This document shows positions 49,134-55,514 of a DNA stretch of 64,000 bases, piece after piece. The DNA is from Pedobacter suwonensis. GTDB taxonomy: Bacteria > Bacteroidota > Bacteroidia > Sphingobacteriales > Sphingobacteriaceae. Both the position numbers and the translations under genes were made by a program. A model generated the notes under the pieces. That model had not been told where the DNA came from. It did not search any database and worked only from the letters and a program-made list of their open reading frames with translations. The stretch is from NCBI RefSeq assembly GCF_900111825.1, contig NZ_FOJM01000006.1:158506-222505 (forward strand), read 5' to 3'. Each line of letters begins with the position of its first letter. Positions within the stretch are counted from its first letter, which is position 1.

Positions 49134-50438
49134 CTAACTTTGGTATCCCAGTAACTTTCTGATTTGGTATAAGAACCGTTCTATTAACCTTAAATCCTGG
49201 GTTACAATTTCTGCATTGCCCTTTAATTCTTTGTCAAAAGTAAGGGTTTTATTATACGAGGTGGTTAAACCTTTTGGTAAGTTCACGTCTACATAGTAGT
49301 TTCCTTTTTCATCTGGGGTGAAAGAAATGTTCTGCACGCTGCCTTCTAAAATCCCATATTCCTGAAAACGGTAATTGTCCAGTTTGATCAGCACTTTTTC
49401 GCCCCGTGCTATTTTACCTGAGTTGGTGGCTGGCACAAGTAGCCTGCCAATGAGCGCCTTTTTATTATCCGGAAGAATGGTTAATATGGCATCGCCCCGT
49501 TTTAAAAATTGATTTTCGCCCCAGAACTGCTGGAAACTTGCGATACCGTCTGTTGATGACGTGATTAAATAATTTTGCTGCCACTGCCTCAACGATTTTT
49601 TTAATTGTTCAAATAACTGTAAGGTTTGTAAAGCAAAATTACTCTTGTCTTTCTCATGATTGATGTTTATTCCACTTCTGGTTTTATTAAGGTTTGCAAT
49701 GGCTTCTTGTGTTTGTGATAGGGAAATTTCTATGTTTTGTATGCTTTGTTCGGCCTGTATAAATTTAATTTTTTCATTTTCGAATTCGGCGGTAGAGATT
49801 ACTTTTTGATTAACAAGCTGCAACGTTCGCTGATAATTTTTCTTAATCAGTTCAAATTTGGCCAGCTCCAGTTTTTTTTGATTTTTTAGCGCAAGTTCCC
49901 TGCTTCTGTTGGCTGTAATATTTTGCTCGGTCGCTTTGTTTTCTGGTTCGTAGGGTTTAAGTGATGCAAATAACTTTTCGTCCTGGAATGCCTTTTCAAA
50001 ACTGTTATAATCGCTTTGGAGCTCGCCCAATTTAAATGTTGATACCTTATTTACCGGAAAAGACGCCATCTGGGCCGGAGGTGTTGAGTCGATTATTCTG
50101 CTGAGTTGCAAAATGTCGTCATAGTTTGCAGTCGATTGCAGCACCATTAAAACCTGATTTTTATGAACCCGTTCGTGATCTTTGATCAAAATTTTTTCCA
50201 GTTTAGAATCTATTCTCGCTTCAAGCTTTTCTGGCGGGTTTTGTGAGGTTATTACAATGGTAGCGGGTACAAATTCCGGGTATTTGATGAAGTAACTCAT
50301 CAGCAAAATCATGAACAGAATACCCAGTATGACCGCATTGCCCCAGCGGAACATCCAATGTGGAGGGTCTGATAATACATCCTGAACAGCTTCAGAACGG
50401 AGCTGTATCTCATCTAGTTTATCTTTTTTAGTTTCCAA
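49134..50438 (-). CDS. HlyD-family membrane-fusion adaptor of the RiPP exporter
   Basis: This 434-aa protein has a membrane helix at about 32-52 (AVILGILFMILLMSYFI). A biotinyl-lipoyl-like half (KLEKILIKDHERVHKNQVLM), a long coiled coil rich in Gln/Lys/Glu (about 180-290) and a beta-barrel half (ALIGRLLVPATNSGKIARGE) follow. It would connect the C39-peptidase ABC transporter to an outer-membrane channel. Its start overlaps the transporter gene by 11 nt. No TolC-like gene is in the operon, so a channel encoded elsewhere is needed. Confidence 0.9.
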   Translation of the reverse strand: METKKDKLDEIQLRSEAVQDVLSDPPHWMFRWGNAVILGILFMILLMSYFIKYPEFVPATIVITSQNPPEKLEARIDSKLEKILIKDHERVHKNQVLMVLQSTANYDDILQLSRIIDSTPPAQMASFPVNKVSTFKLGELQSDYNSFEKAFQDEKLFASLKPYEPENKATEQNITANRSRELALKNQKKLELAKFELIKKNYQRTLQLVNQKVISTAEFENEKIKFIQAEQSIQNIEISLSQTQEAIANLNKTRSGININHEKDKSNFALQTLQLFEQLKKSLRQWQQNYLITSSTDGIASFQQFWGENQFLKRGDAILTILPDNKKALIGRLLVPATNSGKIARGEKVLIKLDNYRFQEYGILEGSVQNISFTPDEKGNYYVDVNLPKGLTTSYNKTLTFDKELKGNAEIVTQDLRLIERFLYQIRKLLGYQS

Positions 50439-52623
50439 GTTCGAGCTGATTTTTGATTAATCGATAATATTCACCTTTTTTTGCCACCAGTTGATGGTGG
50501 TTGCCTTCCTCTACCACTATCCCTTTATCCAGCACAATAATCTTATCGGCATGTTTAACCGTTGATAGGCGGTGTGCAATAACTACCGCAGTTTTTCCCT
50601 TAAAGAACTGCGCTAAATTTTCAATAATGATTTTTTCGTTGTTGGCATCCAATGCACTCGTCGCTTCATCAAAAAAGATATAATCGGGGCTTTTGTAAAC
50701 TGCCCGGGCAATAAATAATCTTTGTTTTTGGCCACCGCTCATGCCAATACCTTCGTTGCCTATTTTAGTGTTGTAGCTTAAGGGTAAATCTTCAATAAAT
50801 TCCTTGATATTGGCTATCTCGACCGCTTTTCTCAGTTTTTGCTTATCGATCATATCTTCGCCAATGGCGATATTATCGGCAATGGTATCATTGAACACAT
50901 AACTTTCCTGCATCACTACGCCGCAGTGCTTTCGCCAATGGCTGGGCGATATACTTTTGAGGTCTGCTCCGCCAATCTGAACATCACCTTTTTCCGGATC
51001 GTAAAATTTGGTAAGCAGTTTTAATAGCGTGGTTTTGCCGCTGCCGCTGGTGCCCACAATTGCTGTGGTTTTTTGATAGGGGATAACCAGATTCAAATCC
51101 TGGAAAATGAATGTATCTGAGCCAACATATCTAAAGGATACCTTATTTAGTGTAATGTCTTTTTGTGGGATTTCTGTAATATATTGCTCATCAGTACTTT
51201 CTTCGTCTTTTTTATCATGAATTTCACCAAGTCTTTCCAAAGATATTTTGGCATCCTGAGTCTGTTTGATAAAATCGATCAATTGTAACAAGGGGCTATT
51301 TAACTGACCGATAATGTATTGCACAGAAAGCATCATACCTAGTGTGAGATTTCCATCCAGTACCAGTTTGGCTGAAAGAAAACTTACTAAAATATCTTTA
51401 ATCTGGTTGATAAAACCACCGCCAACAGATTGCCACTGCTCTAAGGAAAGGGCCTTTATTCTGATTTTAAATAACTTTACCTGTAAAAATTCCCATCCCC
51501 ATCTTTTTTGCTTCTCCGCATTATGCATTTTTATTTCCTGCATGCCGTTAATAAGCTCAATTACTGTGCTCTGCTCCTGCGAAACCTGTGAGAACATTTT
51601 GTAGTCCAGTTCTTTTCTTTTTTTGAGGAAAAAGGTAATCCACGCCACATATAGGATAGCGCCGATTAAATAAACTGCAAAGAGGCGATAATCATACATG
51701 AGCAATACAATGCTGAAAATGATCAGGTTAACCATAGAAAACAGTGTGCTTAGCGAAGAGCTTGTCAGCAATTGTTCTATCCTATGGTGATCGTTGATGC
51801 GCTGCATAATGTCTCCCGTCATTCTGGTATCAAAGAAACTGATGGGAAGTTTCATTAACTTGATGAAGAAATCGGAAACGATAGAGATATTTATTCTGGT
51901 AGAAAGATGCAGTAAAATCCAGCTACGGATAATATCAATACCCATTTTACCTATAAAGAGCATTACCTGTGCCAGCAAAACCAGGTAAATAAAATTGATA
52001 TCCTGATTTTGTATTCCCACATCTACCACACTTTGGGTAAGAAAAGGAAAAATCAGCGATAGCAAACTTCCGGCAAGTAAGCCAAAGGCAAGCTGTATAA
52101 CTAGCGATTTATACTTTAACAGATATCTGGATAGAAAAGCGAAACTTGTCTTCTTTTCTTCATCTTCAAAGTCATCCTGATAGAATGAGGGGCTGGTTTC
52201 CAGAACAAGTGCAACGCCTTCCTCGGTCTCGTCGTTTGCATTTTCACCAATCCAATGTTTAATAAATTCCTCTTTTTTATAAGTAATTAAGCCATAGCTA
52301 GGGTCTGAAATATAAACTTTTTCGGCTTTGTCAATTTTATAAACCACCACATAATGATTTTTGTTCCAGTGTACAATGCAAGGTAAAGGCGCATCTGCAA
52401 CCAGGGTTTTAAAATCTATTTTAACCCCTAAAGTTCTAAAACCTAAACTTTCCGCTGCATTGCTAAGCCCCTGAAGGCCGCTACCTTCTCTGGTTGTTTC
52501 GGTAAGTGTTCTCAGATGCTGAAGCGGAATACTTTTATTATAGTGTTTAGCTATAATACGTAAACAAGTAGGGCCACAGTCTTTTGCATCGGGTTGTTTA
52601 TAAAAAGGGAATTTTTTAGGCAT
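50428..52623 (-). CDS. ABC transporter with N-terminal C39 peptidase domain
   Basis: This 731-aa protein processes and exports peptides. The C39 domain (1-130) has catalytic Cys16 (DAKDCGPTC), His90 (WNKNHYVVV) and Asp107 (ISDPSYG), which cut after GG in leader peptides. A six-helix membrane domain spans about 165-440. The ATPase has Walker A VGTSGSGKTTLL (524-531), signature MSGGQKQR (628-635) and Walker B YIFFDEA. The two precursors at 54909 and 55266 have matching GG leaders. It overlaps the SPASM gene by 8 nt and hlyD by 11. Confidence 0.95.
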   Translation of the reverse strand: MPKKFPFYKQPDAKDCGPTCLRIIAKHYNKSIPLQHLRTLTETTREGSGLQGLSNAAESLGFRTLGVKIDFKTLVADAPLPCIVHWNKNHYVVVYKIDKAEKVYISDPSYGLITYKKEEFIKHWIGENANDETEEGVALVLETSPSFYQDDFEDEEKKTSFAFLSRYLLKYKSLVIQLAFGLLAGSLLSLIFPFLTQSVVDVGIQNQDINFIYLVLLAQVMLFIGKMGIDIIRSWILLHLSTRINISIVSDFFIKLMKLPISFFDTRMTGDIMQRINDHHRIEQLLTSSSLSTLFSMVNLIIFSIVLLMYDYRLFAVYLIGAILYVAWITFFLKKRKELDYKMFSQVSQEQSTVIELINGMQEIKMHNAEKQKRWGWEFLQVKLFKIRIKALSLEQWQSVGGGFINQIKDILVSFLSAKLVLDGNLTLGMMLSVQYIIGQLNSPLLQLIDFIKQTQDAKISLERLGEIHDKKDEESTDEQYITEIPQKDITLNKVSFRYVGSDTFIFQDLNLVIPYQKTTAIVGTSGSGKTTLLKLLTKFYDPEKGDVQIGGADLKSISPSHWRKHCGVVMQESYVFNDTIADNIAIGEDMIDKQKLRKAVEIANIKEFIEDLPLSYNTKIGNEGIGMSGGQKQRLFIARAVYKSPDYIFFDEATSALDANNEKIIIENLAQFFKGKTAVVIAHRLSTVKHADKIIVLDKGIVVEEGNHHQLVAKKGEYYRLIKNQLELGN

Positions 52624-53704
52624 CGTAGTTTAATTGCTGCATGCTGTAACTTTGTATTGCTTTTTGCTTAAGCGGATTTAAGCTCCATTCTTCCCACTGG
52701 CTGGTATAGGGGTTGTAACCACATTTTAAGGGTTTTGAAATGTCTAAGCCATCATTATTTTTATGTGTTTGCTCTGTAAAAGCTCTGCAATCTGTACAGA
52801 TGTTTCGAAACTCGCAGTCTTTGCAAATCTGAATTCCGGACTTGGTTAGGTTCCAGTATTTTTTAAAATCTTCATGGAGGATTGCTTCTTCTAAAGTGGT
52901 CGTGTTGATGTTTCCGAAGCTATTGCACATTGCAGGACAGTTTTTAATATTGCCATTTATATCGATACCTATTTTTTTATGAAGGCAAGAATTATGGTTA
53001 ATGGCTTCTAAAACCTTCAGCATGTTTGTTTCAAAGTATTTTAGATCTACTTTTCCGCAAGAATTTATTTTTAAATGTTGATCGGTAAAAACCAGGTTGA
53101 ATTTAAAAGTATCTGTAACCTCGAAAGCAGCATTATCACATTTATGGAATATCAAGCTGTAGATTCTTAAACATTTTTCATCCAGTTTTTTTACGAAATC
53201 ATCATTTACGTCCTCATGGTACAACGAAAAAATTTCTATGCTTTCTAAGCAAGAGTCGTTAAATGTGTCTTCTAATGTCAAAAAATCCATCAATGAAAGT
53301 TTGCTTTCACAATAGATTACCAAATGTCTTATTCCTAAATTTTCAATAGATTGCACCAACTGTGGCGAAAACATTAAATCAGCAGTTTCGATAAATATAT
53401 TAGAGATGGTGCTGCTATCGCTAAAGTCCGTTTGTAATGGTGGAAAGTTTTCGTCCCAACTGTTTTCAGTAATAAAACCGTACTCTTTTTCTACTAAAAA
53501 GTTCAGGTATTCCTGTAGCATTTCTTTTGATTCCTGATCATAAAGCGCAAATACATCTTCAATGGAATTCGATTTTAACTCTTCAATTATATTATTCAAT
53601 TCTAAAGACTGCAACTCAGAATAGTTACGTTGTAAATCAGAAATTAAGATTCTGTTAACGCCTTTTGTGATCAGGATATCGCTAAATAAGTTGAAGTACC
53701 TCAT
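52616..53704 (-). CDS. gwsS: Grasp-with-spasm system SPASM-domain maturase
   Basis: This 362-aa protein has a SPASM-type iron-sulfur region in its last 125 residues: Cys240, Cys256, Cys260, Cys294, Cys297, Cys303, Cys306 and Cys328 (CPAMCNSFGNI; ICKDCEFRNICTDCRAF). The N-terminal half should be a radical SAM barrel, but I find no CX3CX2C cluster motif anywhere in it. The sequence pattern IGIDINGNIKNCPAMCNSFG marks the grasp-with-spasm maturase family. It presumably acts on the GG-leader precursors with the ATP-grasp enzyme. It starts by ATGA overlap with the 59-aa ORF. Confidence 0.88.
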   Translation of the reverse strand: MRYFNLFSDILITKGVNRILISDLQRNYSELQSLELNNIIEELKSNSIEDVFALYDQESKEMLQEYLNFLVEKEYGFITENSWDENFPPLQTDFSDSSTISNIFIETADLMFSPQLVQSIENLGIRHLVIYCESKLSLMDFLTLEDTFNDSCLESIEIFSLYHEDVNDDFVKKLDEKCLRIYSLIFHKCDNAAFEVTDTFKFNLVFTDQHLKINSCGKVDLKYFETNMLKVLEAINHNSCLHKKIGIDINGNIKNCPAMCNSFGNINTTTLEEAILHEDFKKYWNLTKSGIQICKDCEFRNICTDCRAFTEQTHKNNDGLDISKPLKCGYNPYTSQWEEWSLNPLKQKAIQSYSMQQLNYDA

Positions 53705-53880
53705 AATAATCTGCTAATGGGCTTATATGGTTTTACCAGCATAAGGAAGTTGGTTTGATATCGCTTGCACGTAGCATAAAGCACATCATCACCTTTTTGA
53801 CTATTTTTTTTACCCCTATATTCATCTACAAATTTGAATGTTAGGGGCAGCTTATTTTTATCTTCGATTTTATATCTCAT
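53701..53880 (-). CDS. Small 59-aa protein inside the RiPP operon
   Basis: A 60-codon ORF starts at ATG 53880 and ends at TGA 53701-53703. It begins MRYKIEDKNKLPLTFKFVDE and ends PYKPISRLL, and is strongly basic with no signal peptide. Its start overlaps the ATP-grasp stop (ATGA, 53877-53880) and its stop overlaps the SPASM start (ATGA, 53701-53704). It therefore fills the gap exactly and is coupled on both sides, which is strong evidence for a real gene. I recognise no family; a role as maturase partner or recognition element is only a guess. Confidence 0.78.
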   Translation of the reverse strand: MRYKIEDKNKLPLTFKFVDEYRGKKNSQKGDDVLYATCKRYQTNFLMLVKPYKPISRLL

Positions 53881-54779
53881 AAATATTCGGCTATAGCTTT
53901 CTCTGCACCATAATTACACATGGAGCTGACTCCTAAGAATTGACCAACCGTGTTGACCTCCAAAAAATAAAATTTCTCTTCACTTTTTATGAAATCTATT
54001 GAGCCACAGTTTATATCCAGTAACTCCATTAATTGACGGGTTTTCCTTTCAATTTCTATAGGAAGATTGTATCTGACATTTCGGTTGGGTTTTTCAAGAT
54101 TGTACTTTCTGAAATCGGTTTTGGTTCGCTCATCATTTTGAGAGATTATTGCCGTGGAAAAAAATCTTCCGTTCAGGTAAAAGCTTCTGATTTCGAAATC
54201 CTTTTCAATTTTTTCCTGAAAAAAGGTAATAAAGAAGCTATCTTCTTCCTGGCGATCGATAACATGCGTATACATAATGCTTTCCCCATAATTCTGGTAA
54301 GCGTCAATCGTTATATTTCCGGTCAATGGCTTTATTATTGTTTTATCCAAAACCACATCACACGTATTCTCCGCAAGGTAATATTCGGGAACATCCAGCC
54401 CTGTTTTTTTTGCCTGCTCTAATACAAACAGTTTGTTTACAGCGCTGTTGCTTTGTTTATTGATGTGCTTTTTGGATTCAAGTGTTTTGATTACATAATC
54501 ATGCAGCCAATGTTGGTGCTCCTGCATGTGAATGTTTACCGAATGATTGTCGTAGTGGAAATTTTTAAATTTTAAACCTCCTCTTCTGTACCATACACTA
54601 CTGATTTCATCGAGGTAAAAACAGTTCCTATCGCTTTCTATATAAATCCTTTTCTCTTTGGTTTTGATCTCAAAAACTTCGTCTTCCTGTACCCGGATAA
54701 ATTTTTTACCCATTGCCAAAAGCCATTTGATCACTTCATTGGTGGTGGTCTCCTGTTTCTTGGATATAATTAAAATCAT
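53877..54779 (-). CDS. gwsG: Grasp-with-spasm system ATP-grasp peptide maturase
   Basis: This 300-aa ATP-grasp ligase resembles MvdC/MvdD-type enzymes, which join Asp/Glu side chains to Ser, Thr or Lys in graspetides. It has VWYRRGGLKF early, the core KLFVLEQAKKTGLDVPEYYL, the ATP-binding strand KTIIKPLTGN and the C-terminal metal-binding motif FLEVNTVGQFLG. It lies between the precursors and the SPASM gene. Its stop overlaps the small ORF by ATGA. A lactone or lactam cross-link on the cores is likely but unproven. Confidence 0.92.
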   Translation of the reverse strand: MILIISKKQETTTNEVIKWLLAMGKKFIRVQEDEVFEIKTKEKRIYIESDRNCFYLDEISSVWYRRGGLKFKNFHYDNHSVNIHMQEHQHWLHDYVIKTLESKKHINKQSNSAVNKLFVLEQAKKTGLDVPEYYLAENTCDVVLDKTIIKPLTGNITIDAYQNYGESIMYTHVIDRQEEDSFFITFFQEKIEKDFEIRSFYLNGRFFSTAIISQNDERTKTDFRKYNLEKPNRNVRYNLPIEIERKTRQLMELLDINCGSIDFIKSEEKFYFLEVNTVGQFLGVSSMCNYGAEKAIAEYL

Positions 54780-54908: not shown

Positions 54909-55148
54909 TTAGTAGTTGTGAACAGGTTCACCAGGTGCAAGACGACGGATTTCCCTGTAAATATATCCACCTGTACCATTCGGTCCCTCATAGTGATCAT
55001 ACTCTATACATCCTTCACCCACAAACACATTGGATTGAATAGAGGTGTAGCCTCCCATTGCTCTTCCGCCGTTGGTTGAAGATAAATCAGTAAGTTTTTT
55101 GTTTTCAAGTGAAGAAAAATCTTTCTTCATTCCTTTTAAGTTTTTCAT
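54909..55148 (-). CDS. RiPP precursor peptide 2 (GG leader)
   Basis: Starting at ATG 55148 the peptide has 79 residues. Leader residues 1-28, MKNLKGMKKDFSSLENKKLT then DLSSTNGG, end in a double glycine fitting C39 cleavage; a second GG follows at 32-33. The core contains SNVFVGEGCIEYDHYEG and GGYIYREIRRLAPGEP. It has several Glu/Asp plus Thr/Ser that could be cross-linked. It shares the leader and the SNV, EYDxYE and GG-x-YI-x-R pattern with precursor 1. A longer start at 55205 adds 19 unlike residues and is rejected. Confidence 0.88.
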   Translation of the reverse strand: MKNLKGMKKDFSSLENKKLTDLSSTNGGRAMGGYTSIQSNVFVGEGCIEYDHYEGPNGTGGYIYREIRRLAPGEPVHNY

Positions 55149-55265: not shown

Positions 55266-55514
55266 TTAGTTAGCGCCGTTCCAGTTTCCTATGTCAGAAC
55301 TTGGGGCTGAAACAGCAGATTGACATGTTCTTCCGATATACTTGCCGCCATTGCTTTCGTAAGCGTCATATTCCACAGTTTCACTTGGGTATTGGCCCGG
55401 ACAGGCAACGTTTGATCTGATAAGATACAAACCACCTTGTACTGTGCTTAAATCTTGGAGTCTTTTGTTTTCCAAAGAAGAAAGGCTCTTCTGCATTCCT
55501 TTTAAGTTTTTCAT
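55266..55514 (-). CDS. RiPP precursor peptide 1 (GG leader)
   Basis: This 82-aa peptide has leader residues 1-28, MKNLKGMQKSLSSLENKRLQ then DLSTVQGG, ending in GG. The core contains SNVACPGQYPSETVEYDAYE then SNGGKYIGRTCQ and an Ala/Ser/Asn-rich tail. Two cysteines in the core (one in precursor 2) are notable. It is the first gene of the operon. The identical leader MKNLKGM and the shared EYDxYE core motif tie both peptides to one modifying system. Confidence 0.88.
   Translation of the reverse strand: MKNLKGMQKSLSSLENKRLQDLSTVQGGLYLIRSNVACPGQYPSETVEYDAYESNGGKYIGRTCQSAVSAPSSDIGNWNGAN

Follow-up and report, generated by a model that had tools for sequence, protein, structure and literature searches.

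What does a 59-residue protein do between the ATP-grasp and SPASM genes of a graspetide operon? The question is raised by a stretch of 64,000 nucleotides from Pedobacter suwonensis (the window), in which the following features were located.

49134..50438, minus strand: HlyD-type secretion adaptor (TIGR01843, 93 bits, below its cut-off)
50428..52623, minus strand: peptidase-type ABC exporter (strong bacteriocin-export matches, all below cut-off among the matches listed)
52616..53704, minus strand: SPASM protein, TIGR04193 (387 bits, cut-off 175)
53471..53701, minus strand: RRE-like domain of the SPASM protein, residues 2–78 (predicted model)
53701..53880, minus strand: LPL-family small protein, 59 aa, ATG start
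53704..53727, minus strand: C-terminal signature YKPISRLL of the small protein, residues 52–59 (66-member alignment, diverse-set pattern, codon variation)
53830..53850, minus strand: N-terminal signature LPLTFKF of the small protein, residues 11–17, the 'LPL' motif (66-member alignment, diverse-set pattern)
53877..54779, minus strand: ATP-grasp peptide maturase (graspetide synthetase), TIGR04192 GRASP_w_spasm (344 bits, cut-off 230)
54909..55148, minus strand: precursor peptide 1 with a double-glycine leader (TIGR04139 and PF14406, over both cut-offs)
55266..55514, minus strand: precursor peptide 2, TIGR04139-like, with a double-glycine leader (32.6 bits, family cut-off 40)

The two precursor genes thus lie upstream of the maturation genes and the export pair lies downstream. 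The sequence SSLENKKL is found in 12 of the 12 leaders shown. The family profile of the ATP-grasp enzyme matches 5ig9, 7m4s and 7mgv. MdnC binds its leader through a helix, and the idea that the ATP-grasp enzyme of the window lacks this helix was dropped: the gap is seen in the window enzyme and not in the family profile.

A conserved small gene and its family

The small protein begins with MRYKIEDKNKLPLTFKFVDE. The ORF calls agree with the original prediction of a reading frame at 53701–53880 that overlaps both of its neighbours: with the end of the ATP-grasp ORF at 53877 and the start of the SPASM ORF at 53704, each junction is a 4 nt ATGA overlap. Gene overlap is not peculiar to the small gene, as the SPASM ORF and that of the ABC transporter next to it also overlap, by 8 nt. 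The protein is basic, as had been stated (14 Lys/Arg against 6 Asp/Glu by direct count), and GG, the double-glycine motif of precursors, occurs nowhere in its sequence.

By sequence alone the protein is matched in eight of 99 genomes of the genus, the window's own included, with identities of 40–86% in the other seven. In this gene the window differs from six close relatives mainly in third codon positions (for example 6, 4 and 21 at positions 1, 2 and 3 in the comparison with L112). The NG86 dN/dS ratio is 0.05–0.17 for the window against each of these six relatives and 0.04–0.36 across all 21 pairs among these seven sequences.

A wider set was recruited with the SPASM protein. It comprised 555 named loci, of which the best 80, with 82 SPASM units, form the named set; those closest to the window come from a Sphingobacteriaceae metagenome assembly and from Pedobacter species. 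Of the 82 units, 81 have an intact small ORF, 75 by a profile match with E < 1e-3 and six by position. The sole exception is L183 (Chryseobacterium sp. SN22), where the ATP-grasp gene, the small ORF and the SPASM gene are each disrupted, as though decay had struck the cluster as a single unit. In L159 and L164 the ATP-grasp gene is spread over two frames and the LPL and SPASM genes are open, which may reflect assembly error or decay.

An unnamed, more diverse set of 85 SPASM units, which shares some genomes with the named set, carries an ORF of 53–86 residues picked by rule in 78 units (median 64; for three of the 78 the ORF was assigned manually or under a relaxed rule). Seven units fall outside the rule (L041, L046, L101, L074, L081, L080 and L088), and in five of them inspection by eye or of a wider region revealed the ORF. 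In L041 the LPL gene lies upstream of a lipoprotein-like gene (the wider region is L222), L046 and L101 have the small ORF and a SPASM start that is miscalled or distant, and the frames in L074 and L081 end in KPIS, that of L081 being devoid of a clear start. A small ORF was looked for in L080 and L088 and none was found. Loci L053–L067, with SPASM proteins but no ATP-grasp enzyme, are part of neither the 85-unit set nor the 90-sequence SPASM alignment.

A missing ORF in homologous operons, or a frame that is not conserved, had been named as what would speak against the original prediction; the ORF is present in all units of the named set but one and the dN/dS ratios are low. The 59-residue ORF is a real, conserved gene, and these data support a small partner protein, translationally coupled, at a fixed place in grasp-with-spasm loci.

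The claim that the protein is unrecognised did not hold, for its family had already been named LPL in PMC8939145 (2022), where it comprises 116 proteins in 41 clusters from branch-5 graspetide loci. Judged by its sequence and place, the 59-residue protein fits the family as described there: its gene lies between those for TIGR04192 and TIGR04193, it has LPL at residues 11–13 and it contains no GG. Among the matches listed, PMC8939145 is the only earlier source to use the name LPL in this sense. Branch 5, with 190 loci, is the largest poorly characterized graspetide group in that paper, and no characterized branch-5 product appears among the matches listed and the passages that accompany them.

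Relatives outside the family were sought by several routes. The 59-residue protein gave no match in NCBIfam, Pfam, PHROGs, PDB sequences or viral contigs. A 66-member LPL alignment compared with NCBIfam and Pfam produced scattered weak matches to one or two members (best E 0.0023), which we take as chance, as we do the onconase chains that this alignment picked up in the PDB with E values of 1.9 or worse. Profile comparison with hhalign against the SPASM alignment, RRE included, gave a probability of 0.4%, and comparison with the ATP-grasp alignment for a split-off or duplicated domain gave nothing. An LPL profile search of 145 genomes of the genus returned 12 strong matches, all at grasp-with-spasm loci and none fused, together with three weak ones (E 0.001–0.006); since the profile is drawn from a single clade and failed to pick up the LPL ORFs of more distant loci, orphans or fusions may exist among distant members. 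The single-chain model of LPL consists of one hairpin and is of low confidence (pLDDT 60, pTM 0.23), which a shallow alignment could explain.

The SPASM protein

The SPASM protein is made up of an RRE-like domain, a degenerate radical-SAM-like barrel without CxxxCxxC and retained SPASM cysteines. The CxxxCxxC motif was sought in the first 250 residues of 90 aligned SPASM proteins and was found in none of them, which bears out an earlier remark that this maturase appears to lack a radical SAM cluster motif. Across 44 members the SPASM cysteines show no or almost no variation; in 59 they are invariant, and some more distant relatives have lost them.

In the predicted model of the SPASM protein (pLDDT 85.7, pTM 0.68), residues 2–78 match 6jx3_B, a leader-bound lasso-peptide B1 protein, with a Z-score of 10.3 and 1.9 Å over 77 residues; 5v1v_A was matched as well. 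The predicted N-terminus has the strand-rich start, the three helices and the winged-helix fold that are expected of an RRE. The remainder of the model resembles radical-SAM/SPASM peptide maturases such as PqqE, TigE, ChlB, SuiB and CteB (5wgg), with Z-scores of 9.4–10.1 and r.m.s.d. values of 4.0–10.5 Å. The protein has 362 residues compared with 440 for the matched chains 5wgg_A and 5v1q_B, and few barrel strands are present in the model.

Given the RRE-like fold of the model and the missing CxxxCxxC, the SPASM protein looks like a pseudo-radical-SAM leader-binding scaffold, of which radical chemistry would then not be expected. This differs from PMC8939145, where it is called a radical SAM enzyme. 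As the modelled SPASM protein has an RRE/PqqD-like fold of its own, the role of a PqqD also looks to be filled.

Gene order and two short motifs

The LPL and SPASM genes overlap by exactly 4 nt in 70 of the 81 units of the named set (best 80 of 555 loci) that have the small ORF, where the start of the search match was used as the SPASM start if the ORF call differed; L114 and L121 each have a second SPASM gene (rows 2726 and 2804), with its LPL 1 and 2 nt ahead of it, respectively. In seven of the 81 units (L130, L132, L133, L147, L154, L159 and L167) LPL is set apart from SPASM. In these seven and in L222 it is found 140–1834 nt from SPASM and either overlaps the ATP-grasp gene or lies no more than 30 nt from it, and in five of the seven as well as in L222 other genes lie between LPL and SPASM. 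No gene was seen between ATP-grasp and LPL in the loci examined. The seven separated loci contradict the statement in PMC8939145 that LPL is always directly upstream of SPASM; the same source reports that 'unrelated' small proteins occupy this place elsewhere.

Two features of these loci are recorded in passing. A predicted lipoprotein-like gene (YYNKVNEIDSIYR-type) lies between LPL and SPASM in L132, L133, L147, L154 and L222; it is possibly cluster 23 of PMC8939145, and the three examples tested had no Pfam match. Loci L123 (773–5080, Chryseobacterium luteum) and L128 (621–5080, C. antibioticum) have two tandem ATP-grasp–LPL pairs and one SPASM gene downstream within the 9 kb fetched, with a protein of about 300 residues without a Pfam match between the pairs.

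Partial distance correlations over 67 loci are 0.41 for LPL and ATP-grasp given SPASM and 0.26 for LPL and SPASM given ATP-grasp, the former being the larger in 92% of half-samples; as the three genes are co-inherited, these correlations are weak evidence. For all 50 of the 50 ATP-grasp enzymes of the genus that exceed the TIGR04192 cut-off, a SPASM match lies downstream at a distance of at most 900 nt. Eight ATP-grasp matches in the genus lack SPASM, and LPL was absent after the ATP-grasp gene in the six of these loci that were fetched; all eight score below the TIGR04192 cut-off and thus belong to other ATP-grasp groups. Weighing the 4 nt overlap with SPASM against the separations and the doubled ATP-grasp–LPL pairs, LPL belongs with both partners, and nearer to ATP-grasp.

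Two short segments of LPL are conserved. Leu11, Pro12 and Leu13 are each kept in at least 90% of 66 aligned LPL proteins; Lys53 is invariant in this alignment, and Pro51 and Arg57 are kept in at least 90%. Among the 78 diverse members, an hP-h pattern is present in 65 (mean 18.6, maximum 29 in 500 shuffles), the strict C-terminal pattern [KR]P[IVL][ST] in 33 (mean 0.5, maximum 3 in 500 shuffles) and a looser C-terminal pattern in 58 (shuffle mean 24). As these patterns were composed after viewing the sequences, the shuffle control is a measure of enrichment and not a blind test. Five of the 78 have neither motif. Six, including a near-identical pair, lack the LPL pattern but carry the strict C-terminal motif, which suggests that some of the 'unrelated' small proteins of PMC8939145 probably belong to the LPL family.

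In the named loci the protein mostly ends in PxKx[LI]xR[LM]L (P in 72, K in 75 and R in 72 of 78 distinct sequences). This C-terminal motif is encoded by varied synonymous codons and persists in the seven named loci in which LPL is not directly followed by SPASM, in one of them with Gln in place of Arg. Synonymous variation and retention away from SPASM together argue that the motif is conserved at the protein level and is not an artefact of the SPASM start site. The loose C-terminal pattern is found in 54 of 61 members whose SPASM protein exceeds the TIGR04193 cut-off and in 4 of 17 below it (Fisher 5e-7), and the strict pattern in 29 of 61 and 4 of 17 (p 0.10, short of significance). Once relatedness is counted, with too few independent pairs, the link between motif and SPASM divergence is unsupported, so docking of the C-terminus on SPASM is a guess.

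Possible role and comparison with known systems

The reading that we prefer, with a likelihood a little short of even, is that LPL acts in graspetide maturation as a non-catalytic and probably obligate bridging subunit of a complex of three proteins. In this complex the ATP-grasp enzyme would form the side-chain ester or amide rings, and the SPASM protein, a putative pseudo-radical-SAM scaffold, would hold the precursor leader in its N-terminal RRE-like domain. LPL would be produced together with the ATP-grasp enzyme, have no stable fold of its own and fold on its partners, after which the ATP-grasp–LPL unit would dock on the RRE–SPASM scaffold, tethered through two docking motifs, the N-terminal LPLxF and the C-terminal YKPISRLL, on either side of a variable hairpin. 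We infer the formation of the complex, the contacts between motifs and partners, the absence of an own fold and the need of the ATP-grasp enzyme for LPL from several lines: the near-universal small ORF in the named set, the placement of LPL beside ATP-grasp when SPASM is distant, the doubled pairs in L123 and L128, the frequent 4 nt overlap with SPASM, and the RRE fold of the SPASM model. A poorly defined hairpin is what is expected for a protein that folds on its partners, although the low-confidence model may equally stem from the shallow alignment. The five diverse members with neither motif do not fit easily, and the 4 nt overlap would suit a subunit of SPASM just as well. A precedent is MirC of the rosaritide system, an RRE-like partner that strictly co-occurs with its graspetide synthetase and is required for its activity (PMC13097080).

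The same precedent, and the genomic pairing with ATP-grasp, would also fit a MirC-like folding or stability factor for ATP-grasp alone, without contact with SPASM. This is unlikely, as LPL is seen only alongside SPASM, every over-cut-off ATP-grasp enzyme of the genus has SPASM nearby and the six SPASM-less loci fetched have no LPL. That LPL is instead a part of SPASM, its strands completing the shortened radical-SAM-like barrel, is less probable still: the 4 nt overlaps, the short SPASM chain with few barrel strands and the strands predicted at low confidence for LPL are in line with it, but in seven of 81 units LPL is apart from SPASM and not from ATP-grasp, and two loci pair a single SPASM with two ATP-grasp–LPL pairs. 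PMC8939145 proposes a PqqD-like chaperone or auxiliary SPASM component, while keeping contact with ATP-grasp possible. LPL would then bind the precursor leader and present it to SPASM, beside which it is encoded in most loci. This proposal seems to us more doubtful again, because the SPASM model already contains an RRE/PqqD-like fold (Z-score 10.3), LPL has neither detectable profile similarity to SPASM nor more than a low-confidence hairpin, and in the exceptional loci it stays with ATP-grasp. The original idea of a partner protein therefore stands in outline as a conserved, coupled small protein, its leader-recognition part being weakened by the RRE-like fold of SPASM itself and by the exceptions in gene arrangement, with a low-confidence model of the 59-residue protein to set beside them.

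A likeness between the LPL motif and a leader motif that these precursors lack is also pointed out in PMC8939145. On a view that we hold as speculative, and lower than any of the foregoing, LPL would be a natural leader in trans, a pseudo-leader with two working ends. PLTFKF would replace the proline-hydrophobic leader motif, which is found in three of 84 precursor leaders, and switch ATP-grasp on, and the C-terminal segment would dock on the RRE of the dead radical-SAM scaffold, so that recognition would be split among precursor, pseudo-leader and pseudoenzyme. The C-terminal segment is similar to the [WYL]xxP ligands that one group of RREs binds (PMC12710340): in 19 of the 33 strict C-terminal motifs, the residue at position −3 from the proline is Phe, Tyr or Leu. 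Least credible are the readings as a peptide with a precursor, immunity or regulatory function, or as a spurious ORF with last codons that merely serve the SPASM start site. The protein is indeed small and basic with a variable middle, but it has no double-glycine site, separate precursors are present, dN/dS is 0.04–0.36, and it is the amino acids of the C-terminal motif that are conserved, with codons that vary, also where SPASM is not adjacent.

If the ring-forming enzyme needs LPL, as in the bridging arrangement, together with a pseudo-radical-SAM protein that bears an RRE, attempts at reconstitution that omit the 59-residue gene, which has no Pfam or NCBIfam match, would fail. A naturally split leader, if true, would offer a way to modify peptides to which no leader is fused.

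The closest known system is the LPL family of PMC8939145 itself, with which our protein shares its small size, the LPL motif, its place in Bacteroidota ATP-grasp/SPASM loci and the absence of a double glycine. Our results differ in the seven named loci with LPL apart from SPASM, in a C-terminal motif that also occurs in small proteins which lack the LPL motif and occupy the same place, and in a PqqD-like role that looks to be taken by SPASM. What is added here is the predicted RRE and the missing radical-SAM motif of SPASM, the pairing with ATP-grasp and the C-terminal motif, the last of which may be visible in Fig. 5D or Figure S2 of that paper. PqqD and stand-alone RRE proteins are, like LPL, small proteins beside a SPASM peptide maturase; no RRE similarity was found in the profile comparisons with LPL, whose low-confidence model (pLDDT 60) shows no confident RRE fold, and its SPASM neighbour has an RRE-like domain of its own. 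MirC, with about 315 residues, an RRE-like N-terminal domain and a SurA-like domain, is far from the 59 residues of LPL, and its counterpart as the RRE-bearing partner in grasp-with-spasm loci would be the SPASM protein (PMC13097080).
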